Below are positions 7,826 through 44,574 of a stretch of DNA of 64,000 bases, in pieces. The stretch is from Denitromonas halophila (lineage in GTDB: Bacteria; Pseudomonadota; Gammaproteobacteria; Burkholderiales; Rhodocyclaceae): positions 124,001 to 188,000 of the forward strand of contig NZ_VMNK01000006.1 in the NCBI RefSeq assembly GCF_007625155.1. Reading direction: 5' to 3'. Position 1 is the stretch's first letter, and the number at the start of each line of letters is the position of its first letter. The position numbers were made by a program, and so were the translations under genes. The notes under the pieces were generated by a model. The model had not been told where the DNA came from. It did not search any database and saw only the letters and a program-made list of their open reading frames with translations.

Positions 7826-8253
7826 TTCGTTACACCCTTGCGCTTTTCGATCGCGCGGGCACCGGAGTAACCGAGGTAGCCGGCGCCAAAGAGCCACCAC
7901 AGCTCTTCGGGGATGGCGGCAAGCCAGGCTTGCACGCCGGCCGTAAAGGTGAGCACGGCCGCCGGGTTGATGACATGTGCGATGCCGATGGGGATGGCCA
8001 TCAAGATCATCACGTACATCACGTACAGGAAGCTGGGGCGGGCGCGGCTGGTCCAGGGGTCGGCGCTGTTGGCCTCGGCGAGGATGGCCGACAGGCGGAT
8101 GCGCATCTCTTCGAAGCGACCGTCCTGCTCCATCTTGAGCAGCTCCAGCTTGGCCTTGTCGCGCGCCTCGGGGTCCGGTATCACGCGGTCGAGGAGCTCG
8201 CTACCGAGCGAGAACAGGCCCTTGCCGACGGCGGCGATGGTGACGGGGTCCAT
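7822..8253 (-). CDS. 3TM-type holin (GTA holin-like)
   Basis: A 143-residue protein similar to the 3TM holin family: an N-terminal soluble part with LDRVIPDPEARDKAKLELL, then ARPSFLYVMYVMILMAIPIG and two more hydrophobic segments, and a C-terminal basic tail (EKRKGVTK). Such holins permeabilise the inner membrane so that endolysin reaches the wall. It starts 3 bases after the amidase gene, giving an endolysin-holin lysis pair. Confidence 0.8.
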   Translation of the reverse strand: MDPVTIAAVGKGLFSLGSELLDRVIPDPEARDKAKLELLKMEQDGRFEEMRIRLSAILAEANSADPWTSRARPSFLYVMYVMILMAIPIGIAHVINPAAVLTFTAGVQAWLAAIPEELWWLFGAGYLGYSGARAIEKRKGVTK

Positions 8254-8256
8254 AGC

Positions 8257-8763
8257 TCAAGCCCCCTCGAAGATATGCCCGGCCAGCGGCACCATGCCGC
8301 CGCGCAGCCAGTCGGCCACGGCAAAGCCGGGACAGGTTTTGGGAGCGCCCAGGTCGCGATGGCCGCACACGCCGGTGTAACCGTTTCCGGCATGCGCGAA
8401 CTGGCGTGGCACGCCGTATTTGCCGCACAGAAACTCCACCTGATCCTTGAGGGCATACCACTGCGGCAGGGTGAATTTGTCGGTGCCGATCAGGCACAGG
8501 CCCAGGCCGCGATGGTTGGCGCGCTGGTGCGTGGCGTGAGCGCCGTCCTCGAGCGGGCCGCGCCCGGTGGCGCGGGCACCGTTGGTGTAGATGGCCCAGT
8601 GGTAGCCGATGGCGGTCAGGTCGGGGTTAAGCAGCGAACGCGCCCTGTCGCCGCGACGGAAGCCGGCCTGGCGGTGCCAGTGGTCGATGTCGAGCGTGCT
8701 GGTCCATCGCCCGTTGGGCGTGGCCGAACAGTGGATAACGATGAGGTCAATGGCGCGAGACAT
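8257..8763 (-). CDS. endolysin, N-acetylmuramoyl-L-alanine amidase
   Basis: A 168-residue amidase_2 family enzyme (T7 lysozyme-like), cleaving the bond between N-acetylmuramic acid and the stem peptide. Expected zinc ligands are His11 (in HCSAT, 11-15), His135 (in GHRD, 134-137) and Cys144 (APKTCPG). There is no signal peptide, so export depends on the holin encoded next. It is the first gene after the terminator at 8845-8871, so a late promoter probably lies at 8764-8845; I saw no clear consensus there. Confidence 0.94.
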   Translation of the reverse strand: MSRAIDLIVIHCSATPNGRWTSTLDIDHWHRQAGFRRGDRARSLLNPDLTAIGYHWAIYTNGARATGRGPLEDGAHATHQRANHRGLGLCLIGTDKFTLPQWYALKDQVEFLCGKYGVPRQFAHAGNGYTGVCGHRDLGAPKTCPGFAVADWLRGGMVPLAGHIFEGA

Positions 8764-8844
8764 GGCGGGTTCCGGTACGATGGACAGCGCCCATCTTCCG
8801 CGCGCGCGCGAGGCTCAGTTAGGCGGAAGCGGTTCCGCCCGGAC

Positions 8845-8871
8845 GTAAAAAACCCCGCTCGGGGCGGGGTT
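8845..8871 (-). terminator. rho-independent terminator after the secreted-protein gene
   Basis: On the minus strand AACCCCGC pairs with GCGGGGTT around a 5-base loop and is followed by TTTTTT. It lies 18 bases after the stop of the 155-residue secreted protein and before the lysis genes, separating the middle and late transcripts. A second small hairpin (GGCGGAA-GCGG-TTCCGCC, 8822-8839) follows without a T-run. Confidence 0.85.
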
Positions 8872-8889
8872 GGTGGGGATTGGTGCCGG

Positions 8890-9357
8890 CTACTTCTTTG
8901 CGGGATAGAACACCATCCCCTTCCTGGCATCCATCCACATGGTGTGTTTCTTGCCGTTCCTGAGTGTGCCAGCGACGGCGAGCTGATTGTTTGCGACGTC
9001 ATCCATTACCGCGCCGATGATTGTCCCTGGCTGAGCCTGGAATCGATCCACCTTGATTGTGTCGCGCAGGTAGTCTTCATCAACGAACGTCATGCCCTTG
9101 ACGAACTGGCATGGCACCTCGCATTCCATCACGGTAACGACGCTTCCGTCGCGAGCGAGCACCTGGTGCTTTCCTTCCCTCGACCCGAGGTACATGAACG
9201 CGATGATCTGCTCTCCGATCTGTCCCGCCTGGCGCTGTTCGTCTGTCAGCGCCATGGTGTAGCCGTACTCCATGCCATCACGCATTACATAGTTGTGATC
9301 TTGTGCGGCCACAGTGAGCGAGAGCGCGGCCAGTAGCGCAAAAACCATTTTTTTCAT
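8890..9357 (-). CDS. secreted protein of unknown function, phage cargo gene
   Basis: A 155-residue protein with a clear signal peptide (MKKMVFALLAALSLTVAAQ, cleavage expected around residue 18). The ATG at 9357 is chosen because GGAGG lies 5 bases upstream; the longer frame to 9447 lacks one. The mature part has two cysteines (MECEVPCQF) that could form a disulfide and no known domain that I recognise. It has its own terminator and sits between Mor and the lysis genes, outside the usual Mu plan, so it may be a cargo (moron) gene acting in the host periplasm. Confidence 0.75.
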   Translation of the reverse strand: MKKMVFALLAALSLTVAAQDHNYVMRDGMEYGYTMALTDEQRQAGQIGEQIIAFMYLGSREGKHQVLARDGSVVTVMECEVPCQFVKGMTFVDEDYLRDTIKVDRFQAQPGTIIGAVMDDVANNQLAVAGTLRNGKKHTMWMDARKGMVFYPAKK

Positions 9358-32221: not shown

Positions 32222-32920
32222 ATGTCCGCCACCCCCGCCGCCCTCGATGACCTGCTCCAACGTGCCGATCTCTGGCGCGGCGGCGCCTGCGCGCATCACG
32301 CCGAGGCGACGCTGGGCAGCGGCTTTGCCGCGCTCGACGCGGTGCTGCCCGACGGCGGCTGGCCCTGCGGCGGGCTCACCGAAGTGCTCAGCGGCGGACT
32401 CGGCATTGGCGAGCTCAGCCTGTTTCTGCCCGCGCTGCGCCAGCTCGACGCCGAGGCCGGGTGGATTGTCATCGTCGCGCCACCGGCGCAGTTGCACGCC
32501 CCGGCCTGGCAGGCGCTCGGCTTGCCGCTGTCGCGCCTGCTGGTGGTCGAGGCCGAGGGCGCGGACGCCGCCTGGGCTTGCGAGCAACTGCTCGGCAGCG
32601 GCGCGCTCGCCGCGCTGCTCGCCTGGCTGCCCAGCGCCGACACCCGCGCCCTGCGCCGCCTGCAACTGGCCAGCAGCAACACCCGCTGCCTGAGCCTCAT
32701 CTTCCGCCCCGAGCGCGTCGCCACCCAGCCCTCGCCCGCCCCGCTGCGCCTCGCCCTGCGCGGCAGCAACACCGGCCTGCAGGTCGACATCCTCAAGCGC
32801 CGCGGCCCGCCGCTGGCGCAGGCGATCAGCCTCGCCATCGAGCGGCCGCTGCCGTGGTCGCGTCTGGTGCGCCGTGTCCGCCCGGCCGCGCCGGTGGTTC
32901 GGGAGCCGCACGTCGCCTGA
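32222..32920 (+). CDS. imuA: ImuA, translesion synthesis-associated RecA-like protein
   Basis: A 232-residue SulA/RecA-like protein. N-terminal part has TLGSGFAALDAVLPDGGWPCGG (the RecA-like G-x-G-x-L-T-E-V-L turn) and a mid-region IVIVAPPAQLHAPAWQALGL. ImuA works with ImuB and DnaE2 to recruit the error-prone polymerase after DNA damage. Length matches other proteobacterial ImuA. Followed by imuB after 12 bases. Confidence 0.9.
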   Translation: MSATPAALDDLLQRADLWRGGACAHHAEATLGSGFAALDAVLPDGGWPCGGLTEVLSGGLGIGELSLFLPALRQLDAEAGWIVIVAPPAQLHAPAWQALGLPLSRLLVVEAEGADAAWACEQLLGSGALAALLAWLPSADTRALRRLQLASSNTRCLSLIFRPERVATQPSPAPLRLALRGSNTGLQVDILKRRGPPLAQAISLAIERPLPWSRLVRRVRPAAPVVREPHVA

Positions 32921-37300: not shown

Positions 37301-37487
37301 GAGCAACATCGTCGTCTACTCCGACCTCGCCGAACGCCAACGCCAGATCCTCCTCGGCGCCCGCCTCCTCGGCGTCTACGGCCAGCTCCAACGCGAAGGC
37401 CGCGTCGTGCATGTGCTGGCGAAACGACTGGTGGATTTGACGGACTGGATGGCGGAGCTGACGACGCAGAGTCGGGATTTTCATTGA
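34320..37487 (+). CDS. dnaE2: DnaE2 error-prone DNA polymerase III alpha
   Basis: A 1055-residue C-family polymerase, shorter than DnaE1. N-terminal PHP domain (ELHCVSNYSFLRGASHPEEL; H-x-H-type residues), palm motif with PDIDVDFEHERREIVIQYIY (catalytic aspartates), GRGSAANS, and a C-terminal OB-fold (GIVTCRQRPGTASGIVFVTL). The start at 34320 is preferred because the longer frame begins inside imuB. It copies past lesions with mutagenesis when ImuA/B are present. Order imuA-imuB-dnaE2 is the standard cassette in proteobacteria without UmuDC. Confidence 0.95.
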   Translation: MASSLDSAKRAPRPAFAELHCVSNYSFLRGASHPEELVERAWQLGYRGLAITDECSLAGAVRAHEGLKLAAEKFNADPADFKLIYGAEFTLACGLKLVVLACNRAGYGNLSALITLGRRRADKGDYHLTRGDIDALAPAAALPDCLAIWLPHEAATEVDARWFAERFAGRGWVGVELHSGPDDTARLARLRALADAAALPLVAAGDVHMHRRHRRPLQDTLTALRHKVTVFDAGRRLFPNAERHLRHPLRLARLYPPELLAETTRIADRCQFSLSELRYEYPQEIVPAGDTATTYLRRLTEAGLLTRYPDGVPAEVARTAHKELALIAELRYEPFFLTVYDLVCFARGEGILCQGRGSAANSVVCFALGITEVDPQRASLLFERFLSRERGEAPDIDVDFEHERREIVIQYIYRKYGRERAALAATVIRYRTRGALRDVGRALGFSPEQISALTRSMAWWDKRDQLPHRLREIGLDPASPRVSKWLALTEQLVGTPRHLSQHVGGFIISDGPLARLVPVENAAMAERSVIQWDKEDLESLGLLKVDVLALGMLSVIRRALDLVSQRRGTPVTMADIPAADPATFEALCNADSIGVFQVESRAQMSMLPRLKPRQFYDLVVQVAIVRPGPIQGDMVHPYLSRRNNPAEAARKMAKLPAAVRAVLERTLGVPIFQEQVMKLAEVAAGFTPGEADELRRAMASWRRKGHMQQFKDKLRDGMAERGYTQEFADALCRQIEGFGEYGFPESHAASFALLAYASAWLKWHEPEAFLCALLNSQPMGFYRPAQLVHDAQRHGVRVRPVDVTRSTWDSTLEATGALHERPAVRLGLREIAGLSHATGARIDTARAQAPFTSLHDLAHRADLSRADLDRLAAADALKALSGHRRAALWQTSGLHRQGDLFDTAPPQEAAVSLPEASEGETILTDYASLGFSLGRHPLALLRERLTERRFLPADTLQHLPHAALVRAAGIVTCRQRPGTASGIVFVTLEDETGMSNIVVYSDLAERQRQILLGARLLGVYGQLQREGRVVHVLAKRLVDLTDWMAELTTQSRDFH

Positions 37488-37827
37488 GAGAGGGGTGTAG
37501 ATCGGCAGAGCCTGCCGGCGGGGGAGACGCCAGAACAACCGCACTCGCTCGCCAACCATGACGCGGGGGTGGCGCCTTCCATATGGAATGGTGTAGCGTT
37601 CGTGCTATCCGGCGTGGCGGTGAAGACGTGTCGATCTTGGTGCGCGTGACGTTGCGAAGAGTCGTGGCCTGCACCCGACTTCTCGAAAATGCCGAATTTC
37701 ACAACTTCAGCCTAGCCTTCGCGCCGGCACCTTTCTGTCGCGTCTTTGCCCCAATCATTCCACTGAGCCAACGAAAAATTTCATAACCCGGTGACTTCGC
37801 ACGATAGATCTAGGTTTGGAGAACACA
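37488..37827. other. junction between dnaE2 and the AT-rich FRG/DUF262 island
   Basis: 340 bp with no convincing gene. It contains a perfect 12-bp palindrome TTCCATATGGAA (37577-37588). Base composition shifts from GC-rich host DNA to AT-rich after about 37,680. GGAG at 37818-37821 serves the FRG gene. Confidence 0.5.
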
Positions 37828-38574
37828 TTGAATCAACGCGAGATAACATCTTTACAGTCATTGCTGGAGGCGCTCGGCGAAGACAATGATGGGTATACAG
37901 GTGCCGTCTGGTATCGAGGTCAAGCCAGGGCGGAATGGACGCTCACACCCGGATACGTACGACTGGAAACCCCCCCTTCAGAAGCGACGCTCCTAAAACG
38001 CTTCAAACAAAGCGCGGCCATGCTTATCGAAATGGCTCCACGCGAGTCTTTTGATTGGCTTTTCCTAATGCAGCACTACGGAGTGCCGACACGTCTTCTT
38101 GACTGGAGTGAAAGCCCGCTTGTTGGGCTATATTTTGCGGTGGAGGATCTCGTCAACGATCCCGATCACGACGGCTCACTGTGGTTACTTCGCCCTTCCG
38201 AGCTAAACAAGAATGCACGTATAAACAACCGAGATGAAGAAGGTTACATTCCTTCTTTCGAAGACGAAGAGTTGCAGAACTACTCCGTAGAAAGCCTAGC
38301 TCAGAATCGCAGAATTCAACTTCTACCCGTCGCAACAATTGCGACCAGAAACAATGCACGAATTCAAGCACAGCTCGGTGTATTCACAATTCATCACCAT
38401 GAAAACACTCCCATTGAAGAAGTCGGCGACTCGACTCATGTTATCAAATACGTCATCCCAAAATCCGCAAAGCCGCTCATATACAAGCAGCTACAACTTC
38501 TCGGATTTAGCAGATTTCAACTTTTCCCTGAACTTGCAAGTATTGGGGCGATCATCAAGGGTGGTATCCAATGA
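37828..38574 (+). CDS. FRG domain-containing protein
   Basis: A 248-residue FRG-domain protein. Family motifs: WYRGQARAEWTLTPGYVRLE (the Y/F-R-G core) and HYGVPTRLLDWSESPLVGLYFAVEDL. The TTG at 37828 is chosen because GGAG is 6 bases upstream; an in-frame TTG at 37816 lacks a site. FRG proteins turn up in bacterial defence islands, role unknown. Base composition is much lower in GC than either neighbour (about 48% by eye), and it overlaps the next gene by 4 bases (ATGA), so the two work as a unit. Confidence 0.88.
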   Translation: MNQREITSLQSLLEALGEDNDGYTGAVWYRGQARAEWTLTPGYVRLETPPSEATLLKRFKQSAAMLIEMAPRESFDWLFLMQHYGVPTRLLDWSESPLVGLYFAVEDLVNDPDHDGSLWLLRPSELNKNARINNRDEEGYIPSFEDEELQNYSVESLAQNRRIQLLPVATIATRNNARIQAQLGVFTIHHHENTPIEEVGDSTHVIKYVIPKSAKPLIYKQLQLLGFSRFQLFPELASIGAIIKGGIQ

Positions 38575-39647
38575 GCTACATCGAAACTTTTGCCCTCAAA
38601 AATAGCACCATAATGCTTCTATATTCTGAAAAAGAGGAAATACAACTTGATCCTCAATATCAAAGAATGGGCGGAGTGTGGACAAAGGAAAAAAAGCAGC
38701 TTCTCATTGATTCAATACTGAACGACTACGATGTTCCCAAGCTATATTTTCACGAATTCTCAAGAGATCAAAAAGCAGCAACCGGGTCGTCCTATGCTGT
38801 AGTTGATGGCCGTCAACGGCTGCAAACCATCTGGGATTTTATCGATGGCCGCTTTCCGCTTTCCCAGGATTTTGAGTTCCAAAGAGACGATTCGATAAAC
38901 CTCGCCGGGCTCACGTATGAAGACATTGCCAAGGCTCACCCAAAAATCCGGATTGCATTCGACTCTTTTGTACTTCCAGTTGTTGGCATCAGAACGGACG
39001 ATGAAGACCTAATCGAAGACATGTTCTCACGACTCAATGAGGCGGTTCCACTAAATGCAGCAGAAAAGAGGAATGCGATTGGCGGCGATTTGGTAGCGGC
39101 GATTCGCGACATTGCAGCCTCCGATCTTTTTTTTCGTTGTGTGAAATTTGGCAACAATCGTTATCAACATCGTGAGGTTGCGGCCCGGATGCTACTTGTT
39201 GAGGAGAGCCTTAAAAGCACTGGCCGTTTAATCGACACAAAAAAGGTCTACCTAGATGCTTTAGCCAGAAACTATCACTCTGGAGAATCAGCGCACGTAG
39301 AAGAGCTGAGGCGTGCATCCGAGGAGGTCTCGCGCGCGATGTCTGGAACGTTTTCTGAAAAAGATGAACTACTACAGGCTCAGGGAAACATGATTGTGTA
39401 TTACCTTGTTTTTCGCGCTGGACTACGAACGAACGAAGTGCACAAAATAACCCGAAGAAAACTCCTTAGTTTCCGGGAGCGCCTCAGAGAAAACCGAATC
39501 ATGGCTGCCGAAGAGTACGCAGAATCATCATTTGAGCTTCTTGAATATGATCGATTGAGCCAGCAGGGCACTAACGACTCATCCAACATCAAAGAACGCT
39601 TCGGTATATTGGCAAAAGAGCTCGGTTTGAGTGCGATCGAAATCTAA
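38571..39647 (+). CDS. DUF262 protein, partner of FRG protein
   Basis: A 358-residue protein. Residues 25-85 contain the DUF262 signature (LDPQYQRMGGVWTKEKKQLL, VPKLYFHEF, VVDGRQRLQTIWDF): the D-G-x-Q-R motif of ParB/Srx-like NTP-binding folds, here DGRQR. Unlike GmrSD restriction proteins it has no DUF1524/HNH nuclease domain; the C-terminal 170 residues are helical with no recognised motif. AT-rich, codon use unlike the flanks (AAA, ATA, TTA common). Together with the FRG gene it forms a probable defence-type module. Confidence 0.88.
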   Translation: MSYIETFALKNSTIMLLYSEKEEIQLDPQYQRMGGVWTKEKKQLLIDSILNDYDVPKLYFHEFSRDQKAATGSSYAVVDGRQRLQTIWDFIDGRFPLSQDFEFQRDDSINLAGLTYEDIAKAHPKIRIAFDSFVLPVVGIRTDDEDLIEDMFSRLNEAVPLNAAEKRNAIGGDLVAAIRDIAASDLFFRCVKFGNNRYQHREVAARMLLVEESLKSTGRLIDTKKVYLDALARNYHSGESAHVEELRRASEEVSRAMSGTFSEKDELLQAQGNMIVYYLVFRAGLRTNEVHKITRRKLLSFRERLRENRIMAAEEYAESSFELLEYDRLSQQGTNDSSNIKERFGILAKELGLSAIEI

Positions 39648-39658
39648 CGATTAAGGTT

Positions 39659-39688
39659 AGATCGTGATCGCGAAGCGAGCCACGATCT
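39659..39688. repeat. nested hairpin after the FRG/DUF262 operon
   Basis: AGATCGTG pairs with CACGATCT 14 bases later, and the loop itself contains TCGC-GAA-GCGA. It lies 12 bp after the DUF262 stop. There is no T-run, so it may be an RNA-stabilising or REP-like element rather than a classic terminator. Confidence 0.45.
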
Positions 39689-39751
39689 GAACCGGTTGTT
39701 GGACCGACGTCCCCCCGGTTTTGAGTAGCAGCGGGCTTTAGAGTCCGTGGG

Positions 39752-39793
39752 TCAAGGTGCCGGGGTCAGGTTTTCAAGGTGCCGGGGTCAGGT
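39752..39793. repeat. tandem 20-bp repeat TCAAGGTGCCGGGGTCAGGT
   Basis: Two perfect copies at 39752-39771 and 39774-39793, spaced 22 bases start to start. The GTGCCGGGGTCAGGTCTTG motif is familiar from flanks of REP-associated (Y1) transposases in Burkholderiales and related bacteria, but no transposase gene is present here, so this is probably a non-autonomous remnant or integration scar next to the island. Confidence 0.6.
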
Positions 39794-39835
39794 CTTGAAA
39801 TACCACATCGCCATTAGTCAACCAACGAGAAGCCA

Positions 39836-40351
39836 GTGACCATCACCAAAGTGCAATCCCCCGACCAGATCTCCGCCGTAGCCAATCTGGCCCGCGAGAT
39901 ATGGACGGAGCACTACGCGCCGATCATCGGGCTGGCGCAGGTGGATTACATGTTGGCGACGTTCCAGAGTGAGCAGGCCATCGCGGGTCAGATTGCTGGC
40001 GGGTATACGTACTACCTGGTGACGCATGACGGGCAGTACGTCGGCTATTTGGCGCTTGTTGAGAACGCGGATGGCACCACGCTGATGATCAGCAAGATCT
40101 ATGTGACCAAGGCCGGACGCGGTGGTGGGTTTGGGCGAAAGCTGCTGGACTTTGCGGAGGACGTTTGCCGCGAGCGGCAGATTCCGGCGCTATGGCTGAC
40201 AGTGAACAAGAACAACACGGGCTCCGTCGCGTGGTACACCCGCATGGGGTTCAAGAACGCTGGGGCGATCGTTCAAGATATCGGGGCAGGATTCGTGATG
40301 GACGATTACCGGATGGAAAAGACGATCAGCTCGCACGCGCCGGGGGTCTGA
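39836..40351 (+). CDS. GNAT-family N-acetyltransferase
   Basis: A 171-residue GNAT acetyltransferase, GTG start at 39836. Acetyl-CoA motif A is ISKIYVTKAGRGGGFGRKLLDFAE (R-G-x-G-x-G/K type), motif B LWLTVNKNNTGSVAWYTRMG follows. Substrate unknown. Its last 60 codons are the parent of a decayed copy at 44374-44574. Following the repeat pair at 39752, it may have arrived with the island or be host. Confidence 0.9.
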   Translation: MTITKVQSPDQISAVANLAREIWTEHYAPIIGLAQVDYMLATFQSEQAIAGQIAGGYTYYLVTHDGQYVGYLALVENADGTTLMISKIYVTKAGRGGGFGRKLLDFAEDVCRERQIPALWLTVNKNNTGSVAWYTRMGFKNAGAIVQDIGAGFVMDDYRMEKTISSHAPGV

Positions 40352-44373: not shown

Positions 44374-44574
44374 CTTATTGAATCTGGGCAGACGACGTCT
44401 GCCGGGAACGGCGGATTCCTACCCTATGGCTGACCATCAGCAAGGGCAACGCGGGTGCCATCGGTTGGTCCGCACCCATGGGGTTCAAGAACGTCGGCGT
44501 GATCGCTCAAGATGTCTGGGCGGGATAGGTGAAGGACGATTTCCGAATGAGAAAACGACCGGCCCACACGCGCC
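44374..44574 (+). pseudogene. degenerate C-terminal fragment of a GNAT acetyltransferase
   Basis: Translation gives DDVCRERRIPTLWLTISKG, then FKNVGVIAQDVWAG, an in-frame stop (TAG) and VKDDFRMRK. It aligns with the C-terminal third of the GNAT protein at 39836-40351 (EDVCRERQIPALWLTVNKN, FKNAGAIVQDIGAGFV) with clear but diverged identity. A 2-base shift is needed near its 5' edge, and the N-terminal part is missing. An old, partial duplicate in the same orientation 4.2 kb away. Confidence 0.82.

Follow-up and report, generated by a model that had tools for sequence, protein, structure and literature searches.

A 64,000-nucleotide stretch of the Denitromonas halophila genome (hereafter the window; contig NZ_VMNK01000006.1, positions 124,001 to 188,000) contains two small overlapping genes, coding for an FRG-domain protein and a DUF262 protein. 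Comparison with related loci shows that FRG and DUF262 form a consistently paired, co-inherited unit, and that the pair has passed between distant bacteria and also occurs on viral contigs. We propose that it constitutes a mobile two-gene conflict (defence) module in which a DUF262 sensor would activate an FRG effector that uses NAD+, and give this reading a probability of somewhat under 0.6.

Both open reading frames (ORFs) are intact in the window sequence. Pfam (E up to 0.01, as in the Pfam negatives below) assigns a single domain to each protein, FRG and GmrSD_N respectively, and no other; NCBIfam matched neither protein at E up to 1. The 4-base overlap described in the initial annotation is an ATGA shared by the FRG stop and the DUF262 start (Table 1). 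The same annotation noted that the pair is AT-richer than its neighbours, which is readily confirmed: the guanine plus cytosine (GC) content is 48.6% for FRG, 45.8% for DUF262 and 47% for the pair, compared to 65.7% for the whole window. Third-position GC is 47% and 45% for the two genes, and 89% for the ORF taken for dnaE2. Of 3109 sliding windows of equal length, just 3 have a GC content as low as that of the pair, and all three overlap it.

A search of the host family with the DUF262 protein matched 20 of 297 genomes. The three best matches (this genome, G182 at 66% and G194 at 38%) have FRG directly upstream of DUF262, while the other 17 (≤36%) have no FRG within a flank of ~1.5 kb. An alignment of the three DUF262 proteins was then used to scan 84,980 species genomes and retrieved 65 loci, in 63 of which FRG is located immediately upstream on the same strand, a few of the FRG genes being cut by a contig edge or broken (e.g. 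L052). The exceptions are one locus cut at the contig edge (L034) and one with a broken DUF262 and no FRG (L092). As the search was by DUF262 only, each FRG is an independent observation; the seed alignment was, however, chosen from FRG-linked members. The overlap is exactly 4 bases in 32 of the 63 paired loci. It was found that FRG and DUF262 protein distances are closely correlated (r 0.951 for the 52 loci present in both alignments), a value reached in none of 2000 permutations, the highest of which gave 0.37. The pairing and the correlated distances support the coupled unit that had been proposed from the window alone. No third component emerged from an all-against-all comparison of 860 neighbour ORFs from the 65 loci: no cluster lies beside most pairs, and the largest, found in 13 loci, consists of ABC transporter genes as judged by eye.

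The closest relatives found of the window pair are in Pseudomonas. In a DUF262 tree of 60 rows, the window protein groups with those of Pseudomonas fluorescens PS858 (83%) and P. capsici (79%) with support of 100/100. The eleven phylum labels on this tree, some rows of which are metagenome bins, require 18 changes where the minimum possible is 10. When positions 37600-39800 were used as a DNA query against the two Pseudomonas loci, similarity extended over ~37837-39648, corresponding to the two ORFs. Relative to the Pseudomonas copies, the synonymous difference is 0.85-0.91 (saturated) and the nonsynonymous difference 0.12-0.15; both proteins are therefore under strong purifying selection. None of the 9 other genomes of the genus, two of which are 86% complete, has a DUF262 match at 1e-8. 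Among 398 sampled genomes of the phylum there are 6 matches at E up to 1e-40, this genome included; 5 of them, again including this one, have an adjacent FRG, the weakest (L270) being without. The GC content of the pair lies below that of its flanks in 58 of the 59 loci with enough flank, with a mean difference of -14 points.

In two scans, IMG/VR yielded 41 loci with DUF262 and 38 with FRG. The adjacent pair is present on 15 contigs, 14 of them different given that L194 equals L195 over 11,953 bases. Among the 26 unpaired viral DUF262 contigs, L202 looks the closest, and the rest match at ≤38%, mostly over short segments. Among the 25 of 200 families listed for the neighbours of 12 paired viral loci (129 proteins after removal of the pair, from 150 drawn of 171 ORFs), there are up to 4 integrases and up to 5 DNA methyltransferases, together with terminases and CI/CII-like regulators. 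An integrase directly follows the pair in L191 and lies within 1 kb of it in L198. Tyrosine integrases are not enriched in the genome loci, with 3 matches in 1.15 Mb and ~2 expected from the genome's own 9 in 4.4 Mb. Of 47 DUF262 matches in annotated plasmids, 40 were listed, and one of these, in Hymenobacter volaticus (Bacteroidota), is accompanied by an adjacent FRG; one further match that was examined has none. An FRG-family ORF annotated as hypothetical protein (L098, LR595870.1, 320-1684) is located near one end of a P2-like phage genome. Patchy distribution, viral-contig carriage and cross-phylum spread agree with the horizontal acquisition assumed at the outset, and the pair is neither restricted to vertically inherited, syntenic contexts nor associated at chance level, either of which the initial annotation would have counted against a defence unit.

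An AlphaFold2 model of the FRG protein based on 54 sequences has a predicted local distance difference test (pLDDT) score of 90.5 and a predicted template modelling (pTM) score of 0.87. VIA-align was applied to 355 Foldseek candidates, and 49 of the best 50 rows are, by title, ADP-ribosyltransferase (ART) toxins or antitoxin-bound ARTs, with TreX, ParT and MbcT counted as ARTs. The sole non-ART row is an NAD-binding DNA ligase. The best row has Z 5.8, a root-mean-square deviation (rmsd) of 3.3 and 106 aligned residues; identity to the fold neighbours is about 10%. VIA-align warns that Z < 8 may reflect a common arrangement; in favour of the ART likeness, a single superfamily occupies the match list. 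The best viral structure match (BFVD) is an ART-PolyVal-like protein with E 0.009, and a comparison by sequence with solved structures gave two chance-like weak matches only (0.45 and 0.6). The FRG protein is accordingly predicted, with good support but at low structural similarity, to have an ADP-ribosyltransferase-like fold.

Catalytic triads of ARTs are R-S/T-E or H-Y-E. Residues R30, G31, L39, P41, E52, H83, T88, R89, L90, D92, W93, F103, L121, P167, R178, Q182, F186 and P234 are invariant in all 54 FRG sequences. The positions R30, S/T94 and Q182 are conserved in the sequence alignment, and we infer that WYRG, TRLLDW[ST] and AQ-x-G-x-F could represent the first, second and third ART motif, respectively. 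The statement in the initial annotation that FRG function is unknown is outdated as far as prediction is concerned: a passage of PMC9503650 assigns Frg to the ADP-ribosyltransferase superfamily and considers that it might be an NADase, citing Burroughs and Aravind 2020 (J. Bacteriol.) for this claim.

The AlphaFold model of the DUF262 protein, based on 60 sequences, has a pLDDT of 90.4. Residues 1-159 superpose on SspE_40224 (Z 7.9, rmsd 4.2, 147 aligned) and residues 7-159 on ParB CTPases (Z about 7, rmsd about 3). The list for the full-length model is led by BrxU (Z 9.0, rmsd 17.6) and SspE (Z 8.2, rmsd 21.1), and the large rmsd values indicate that the domains are packed differently in DUF262. 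Fold prediction of both proteins, which had been suggested as a check, hence yields an ART-like FRG protein (at weak Z) and an SspE/ParB-like N-terminal domain for DUF262. By sequence, the DUF262 protein has no match among solved structures at E up to 1. An unrecognised fold in the C-terminal 170 residues had been envisaged as one possible source of toxic activity; residues 160-358 (~200 residues) are conserved, helical in the model and weakly similar to the SspE C-terminal domain (7dri; Z 3.7, rmsd 5.2, 149 aligned), with no sign of a nuclease either by Pfam or in the all-helical C-terminal half of the model. The absence of DUF1524/HNH was likewise confirmed by Pfam for DUF262 beyond residue 169, for the FRG partner and for the GNAT gene behind the pair. 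Motif residues D79, G80, Q82 and R83 are kept in 60 of 60 relatives, while position 81 is occupied by R in 47 of them and by K in the other 13. DGRQR is consequently no departure within the group, contrary to the suggestion that it replaces a commoner DGQQR. Overall, the model gives good support for a predicted ParB/Srx-fold nucleoside triphosphatase (NTPase) of the GmrSD/BrxU/SspE kind that is devoid of the DUF1524 nuclease.

The pair is located beside C5 cytosine methyltransferases far more often than chance would allow. These form the second-largest cluster of neighbour ORFs, present in 8 of the 65 loci (L032, L050, L067, L073, L074, L077, L079 and L096) and in all cases within 4.2 kb. A PF00145 search of 50 of the locus genomes gave 89 matches in 229.5 Mb, and all eight cluster members coincide with matches by coordinates. 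The 8 observed compare with 0.45 expected in 1.15 Mb of loci (Poisson P 3e-8), an expectation that is raised by counting pieces of one gene apart. Leaving out L074 and L096, the genomes of which were included for having the gene, 6 are observed versus 0.35 expected for 48 genomes (P 2e-6). Nucleases found beside the methyltransferase are R.HinP1I (L067), NgoFVII (L074) and two Eco29kI (L079), and a Vsr-like endonuclease lies near the pair in 5 loci. For the two nearest relatives of the window pair, the genes run in the order C5 methyltransferase, a 366-residue protein with no Pfam match, Vsr, FRG and DUF262. A PADLOC/Pfam scan was made of 150 of the 449 ORFs within 4 kb, with 25 of 138 and 25 of 159 families listed, respectively; all 25 PADLOC rows listed are C5-methylase models from three proteins, and other defence genes may be hidden behind them.

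Two further arrangements were observed. In Pseudarthrobacter (L073, 11860-13599), a second, different GmrSD_N protein and a Vsr-like gene lie between the C5 methyltransferase and the pair. The second FRG gene of the D. halophila genome (L120, G000:C14:98000-116000, 8190-9116) is located inside a type I restriction locus of the order hsdM-AlbA_2 (Schlafen)-hsdS-FRG-hsdR.

In the proposed mechanism, the DUF262 NTPase would recognise foreign or wrongly modified DNA and undergo a conformational change via its helical domain, activating the FRG partner. Activated FRG would then use NAD+, either by hydrolysis or by ADP-ribosylation of a target, with infection being aborted as the outcome. Since the pair recurs together with C5-methyltransferase systems and Vsr, the module may be able to serve as a second line of defence after restriction based on cytosine, by analogy with BrxU beside BREX. 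A wider proposal, that the pair represents a distinct, widespread and as yet undescribed class of defence in which a nuclease-less type IV sensor drives a separate ART-like FRG to NAD+ depletion or ADP-ribosylation as a back-up to type II cytosine systems, is more tentative, and we place it at slightly less than even odds. If true, DNA sensing of the restriction type would thereby be connected to NAD-based abortive infection.

Several observations weigh against the proposed module. The similarity of FRG to ARTs is weak (Z < 6): a Foldseek search of the PDB found nothing at E <= 0.001 (best 0.62), with 5 of 47 rows ARTs by title and the rest unrelated, and the usual place of the ART catalytic glutamate seems to be held by the invariant Gln182. 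For DUF262, the pTM of the model is 0.59, Foldseek matches stay above 0.001 (best BrxU, E 0.002) and a firm fold match is limited to the modelled N-terminal domain. The partners also occur apart. A DUF262 related to that of the module exists without FRG on the viral contig L202 (38% over 194 residues), and 29 of the 38 viral FRG loci have no adjacent DUF262 (L236 has both, apart), from which it follows that the FRG domain works elsewhere too. The neighbourhood of the window copy showed no defence gene (FRG, DUF262, GNAT and nearby genes by Pfam/PADLOC, other window genes by eye), and the neighbour Pfam families listed (25 of 159) are mainly metabolic, with the same three methylases and one Eco29kI nuclease in addition. 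N6_Mtase, the type I methylase, is not enriched, with 0 found versus 0.50 expected in the 1.15 Mb of loci; the expectation is based on 99 matches in 49 genomes, and the profile recovers 21 of 21 control loci, 20 of which trained it. The enrichment near defence genes that had been named as a check is accordingly found for the C5 methyltransferase and not for N6_Mtase.

An alternative explanation is that of a toxin-antitoxin (addiction) module, with an ART-like FRG toxin held inactive by DUF262 and any phage effect secondary to mobile-element addiction. This would fit two small overlapping genes, the toxin-like fold neighbours of FRG (including the toxin-antitoxin toxins ParT and MbcT), the copies among ordinary genes, and the occurrence of the pair on one Bacteroidota plasmid and on contigs that also bear temperate-phage genes. 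Usual antitoxins are, however, unlike a 358-residue NTPase-like protein, and here the nucleotide motif of the partner is kept in every relative. With DUF262 relatives being subunits of defence systems, and the C5 methyltransferase link unexpected under pure addiction, we consider this explanation unlikely. The same methyltransferase link could instead point to an accessory of restriction-modification that guards or regulates the C5-methyltransferase system, for example by acting on wrongly cytosine-methylated cells or DNA, solitary copies being strays. The methyltransferase in 8 loci and the Vsr-like gene in 5, the position of the closest relatives directly after methyltransferase, 366-residue protein and Vsr, and the second FRG of the genome inside hsdM-AlbA_2-hsdS-FRG-hsdR are all compatible with such a role. 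It is nevertheless less probable still, as 57 of the 65 genome loci have no detected C5 methyltransferase in the stretch examined (some stretches being short) and none was seen by eye around the window copy.

A stress or housekeeping function, for instance in NAD+ or nucleotide metabolism, with no part in conflict with mobile elements, could be argued from the position of the pair next to the presumed imuA-imuB-dnaE2 damage-tolerance cassette. It is hard to reconcile with the absence of the pair from all 9 of the other congeneric genomes searched, its presence in 5 of 398 sampled phylum genomes (this one included), and with viral-contig carriage, AT-richness and cross-phylum spread, and we regard it as very improbable.

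The genomic context of the pair in the window was also considered. Pfam identifies the downstream genes as GNAT, glutaminase and DUF3422. It also gives a SulA/RecA match for the ORF at 32222, which is what an imuA gene should show. The genes upstream of the pair that we take to be dnaE2 and imuB were identified by sequence recognition alone. The placement of the pair between imuA-imuB-dnaE2 and metabolic genes given in the initial annotation thus holds by Pfam for imuA and the downstream genes, and by eye for imuB and dnaE2. Rfam has nothing near the gathering score in 37400-40000. The GNAT gene at 39836-40351 is partly duplicated in the window: a second, incomplete copy (76%) lies at 44388-44574, and it also occurs in G199.

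In the sister genomes G199, G220, G238, G110 and G253, DNA common with the window extends up to 37504-37651, behind dnaE2, and in G199 and G220 it resumes at ~39775-39781. Between those points the latter two do not have the FRG-DUF262 pair, the interval being partly seen with contigs ending there. The site (37504-39780; L115-L118, L025) is variable: where the window has the pair, G199 has a different small ORF, G220 has other DNA, and G238 and G110 have what by eye looks like a PIN toxin and its excisionase-type antitoxin; L025 begins with an attC-like fold. This site may be a hot spot for conflict genes.

The initial annotation also noted a nested hairpin following the pair. The hairpin repeat starts at the DUF262 stop, which is the right edge of the segment common with Pseudomonas, and copies of 97% identity are found in G199 (five) and G175 (two). 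The 5' flanks of the eight copies are unrelated, and six (L115, L158-L162) extend into a longer sequence that they have in common, over 542 bp in the case of L161 and L162. Four copies are at contig ends, the copies outside the window being those of L115 and L157-L162. A nearby fragment has a weak match to Y2_Tnp (IS91-type transposase) at 8e-4, below the cut-off, and the repeat is probably the end of an IS91-like element, a label that is tentative. Because the hairpin ends a longer element in the two sister genomes, it is probably outside the module. The tandem 20-bp repeats reported behind the pair do exist, with a unit of 22 bp in two copies.

The possibility of an integron gene cassette with the hairpin as attC was considered and rejected, given the variable 5' flanks across copies and the longer repeated element that the hairpin ends. 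GTTRRRY / RYYYAAC was not found between dnaE2 and FRG, which also counts against a cassette. The attC reading had been based on four integron integrases in the genome with attC-like folds near two of them, using a crude fold scan that also fires inside coding genes of the window. The integrases above the TIGR02249 cut-off are at C23:415-1350, C28:542449-543393, C14:150965-151906 and C18:119460-120401, the attC-like folds lying near those of C28 and C18 (L164, L166). An integrase above this cut-off is present in 7 of 10 genomes of the genus.

Table 1 Coordinates of the FRG-DUF262 pair and adjacent features in the window.
Feature	Position	Strand	Description
FRG-domain gene	37828-38574	+	248 residues; TTG start; GGAG at 37818-37821; Pfam FRG PF08867, E 4e-24
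FRG domain proper	37906-38148	+	Residues 27-107; contains WYRG (37909-37920) and TRLLDWS
ATGA overlap of FRG stop and DUF262 start	38571-38574	+	4 bases
DUF262 gene	38571-39647	+	358 residues; ATG start; Pfam GmrSD_N PF03235, E 9e-18
GmrSD_N/ParB-like NTPase domain	38640-39077	+	DUF262 residues 24-169; predicted
DG[RK]QR nucleotide-pocket motif, here DGRQR	38805-38819	+	DUF262 residues 79-83
All-helical C-terminal region of DUF262	39048-39644	+	Residues 160-358; no nuclease found; from model
Hairpin repeat	39643-39704	.	Abuts DUF262 stop codon; IS91-like end (tentative label)
Tandem repeat	39752-39795	+	2 copies of a 22-bp unit; no sign of module membership

Known DUF262 defence systems differ in their effector (DUF1524, HEPN or OLD nuclease). 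GmrSD, which cuts DNA with modified (glucosyl-hydroxymethyl) cytosine, and BrxU and SspE, all restriction enzymes of the type IV or phosphorothioate-dependent kind, resemble the DUF262 protein of the pair in the ParB/Srx-like NTPase domain, the DG-x-QR motif and the helical region behind it, and the DUF262/GmrSD_N feature of the type IV enzyme GmrSD is present in the pair (Table 1). They differ in that the DUF262 protein of the pair is without the DUF1524/HNH nuclease, a separate FRG protein being found in the effector place. Passages of PMC10952713 describe the role of the DUF262 motif and state that DUF262 hydrolyses NTPs in BrxU and SspE, and triggers the nuclease in SspE. The same passages list DUF262 without DUF1524 in PD-T4-2, Menshen and Dazbog, PD-T4-2 being given with DUF262 and HEPN. 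The DUF262 protein is related to that of the E. coli system PD-T4-2 over residues 19-318 (PADLOC model PD-T4-2_A, 6.7e-19), whereas the partner is FRG, and neither FRG nor GNAT matches HEPN or the PD-T4-2 partner by Pfam or PADLOC. A nearly full-length match was obtained with the NsnA model (residues 13-348, 1.2e-32), which we presume to belong to Menshen. In Menshen, according to a passage of PMC10952713, the DUF262 gene goes with a predicted OLD nuclease. In contrast, the partner in the window is FRG and the next gene GNAT, neither of which matches an Nsn partner model (other window genes by eye).

The FRG gene matches 14 models of the PADLOC candidate PDC-S15 (best 4.6e-50), described as uncharacterised in a passage of PMC12482510. 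These models match the FRG gene alone, and the DUF262 partner matches other models. Members of the ART superfamily (RES/MbcT, ParT and Rhs toxins) fill the FRG fold neighbour list, differing by low similarity and by the putative third motif, with Gln182 in place of Glu. A passage of PMC12373910, which surveys the 20 most common clusters of DUF262 in Enterobacteria, mentions DUF262-nuclease and double-DUF262 systems. No paper on the FRG-DUF262 pair was found in the open-licence literature searched; Burroughs and Aravind 2020 may already mention FRG beside DUF262. The claim of an undescribed system can apply to the pair only and not to its halves: each half is already a listed defence candidate (PDC-S15; NsnA/PD-T4-2_A), and what may be new is the fixed FRG-DUF262 combination. 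Through this combination FRG acquires a defined partner and a role that can be tested, and, if the proposed module is correct, assays of the FRG protein could include its natural activator. The pair suggests that type IV-like DNA sensors could serve as a front end of general use, to which NAD-consuming effectors can be coupled. By analogy with the systems above, it would be a further effector swap among DUF262 systems, with FRG taking the place of the DUF1524, HEPN or OLD nuclease.

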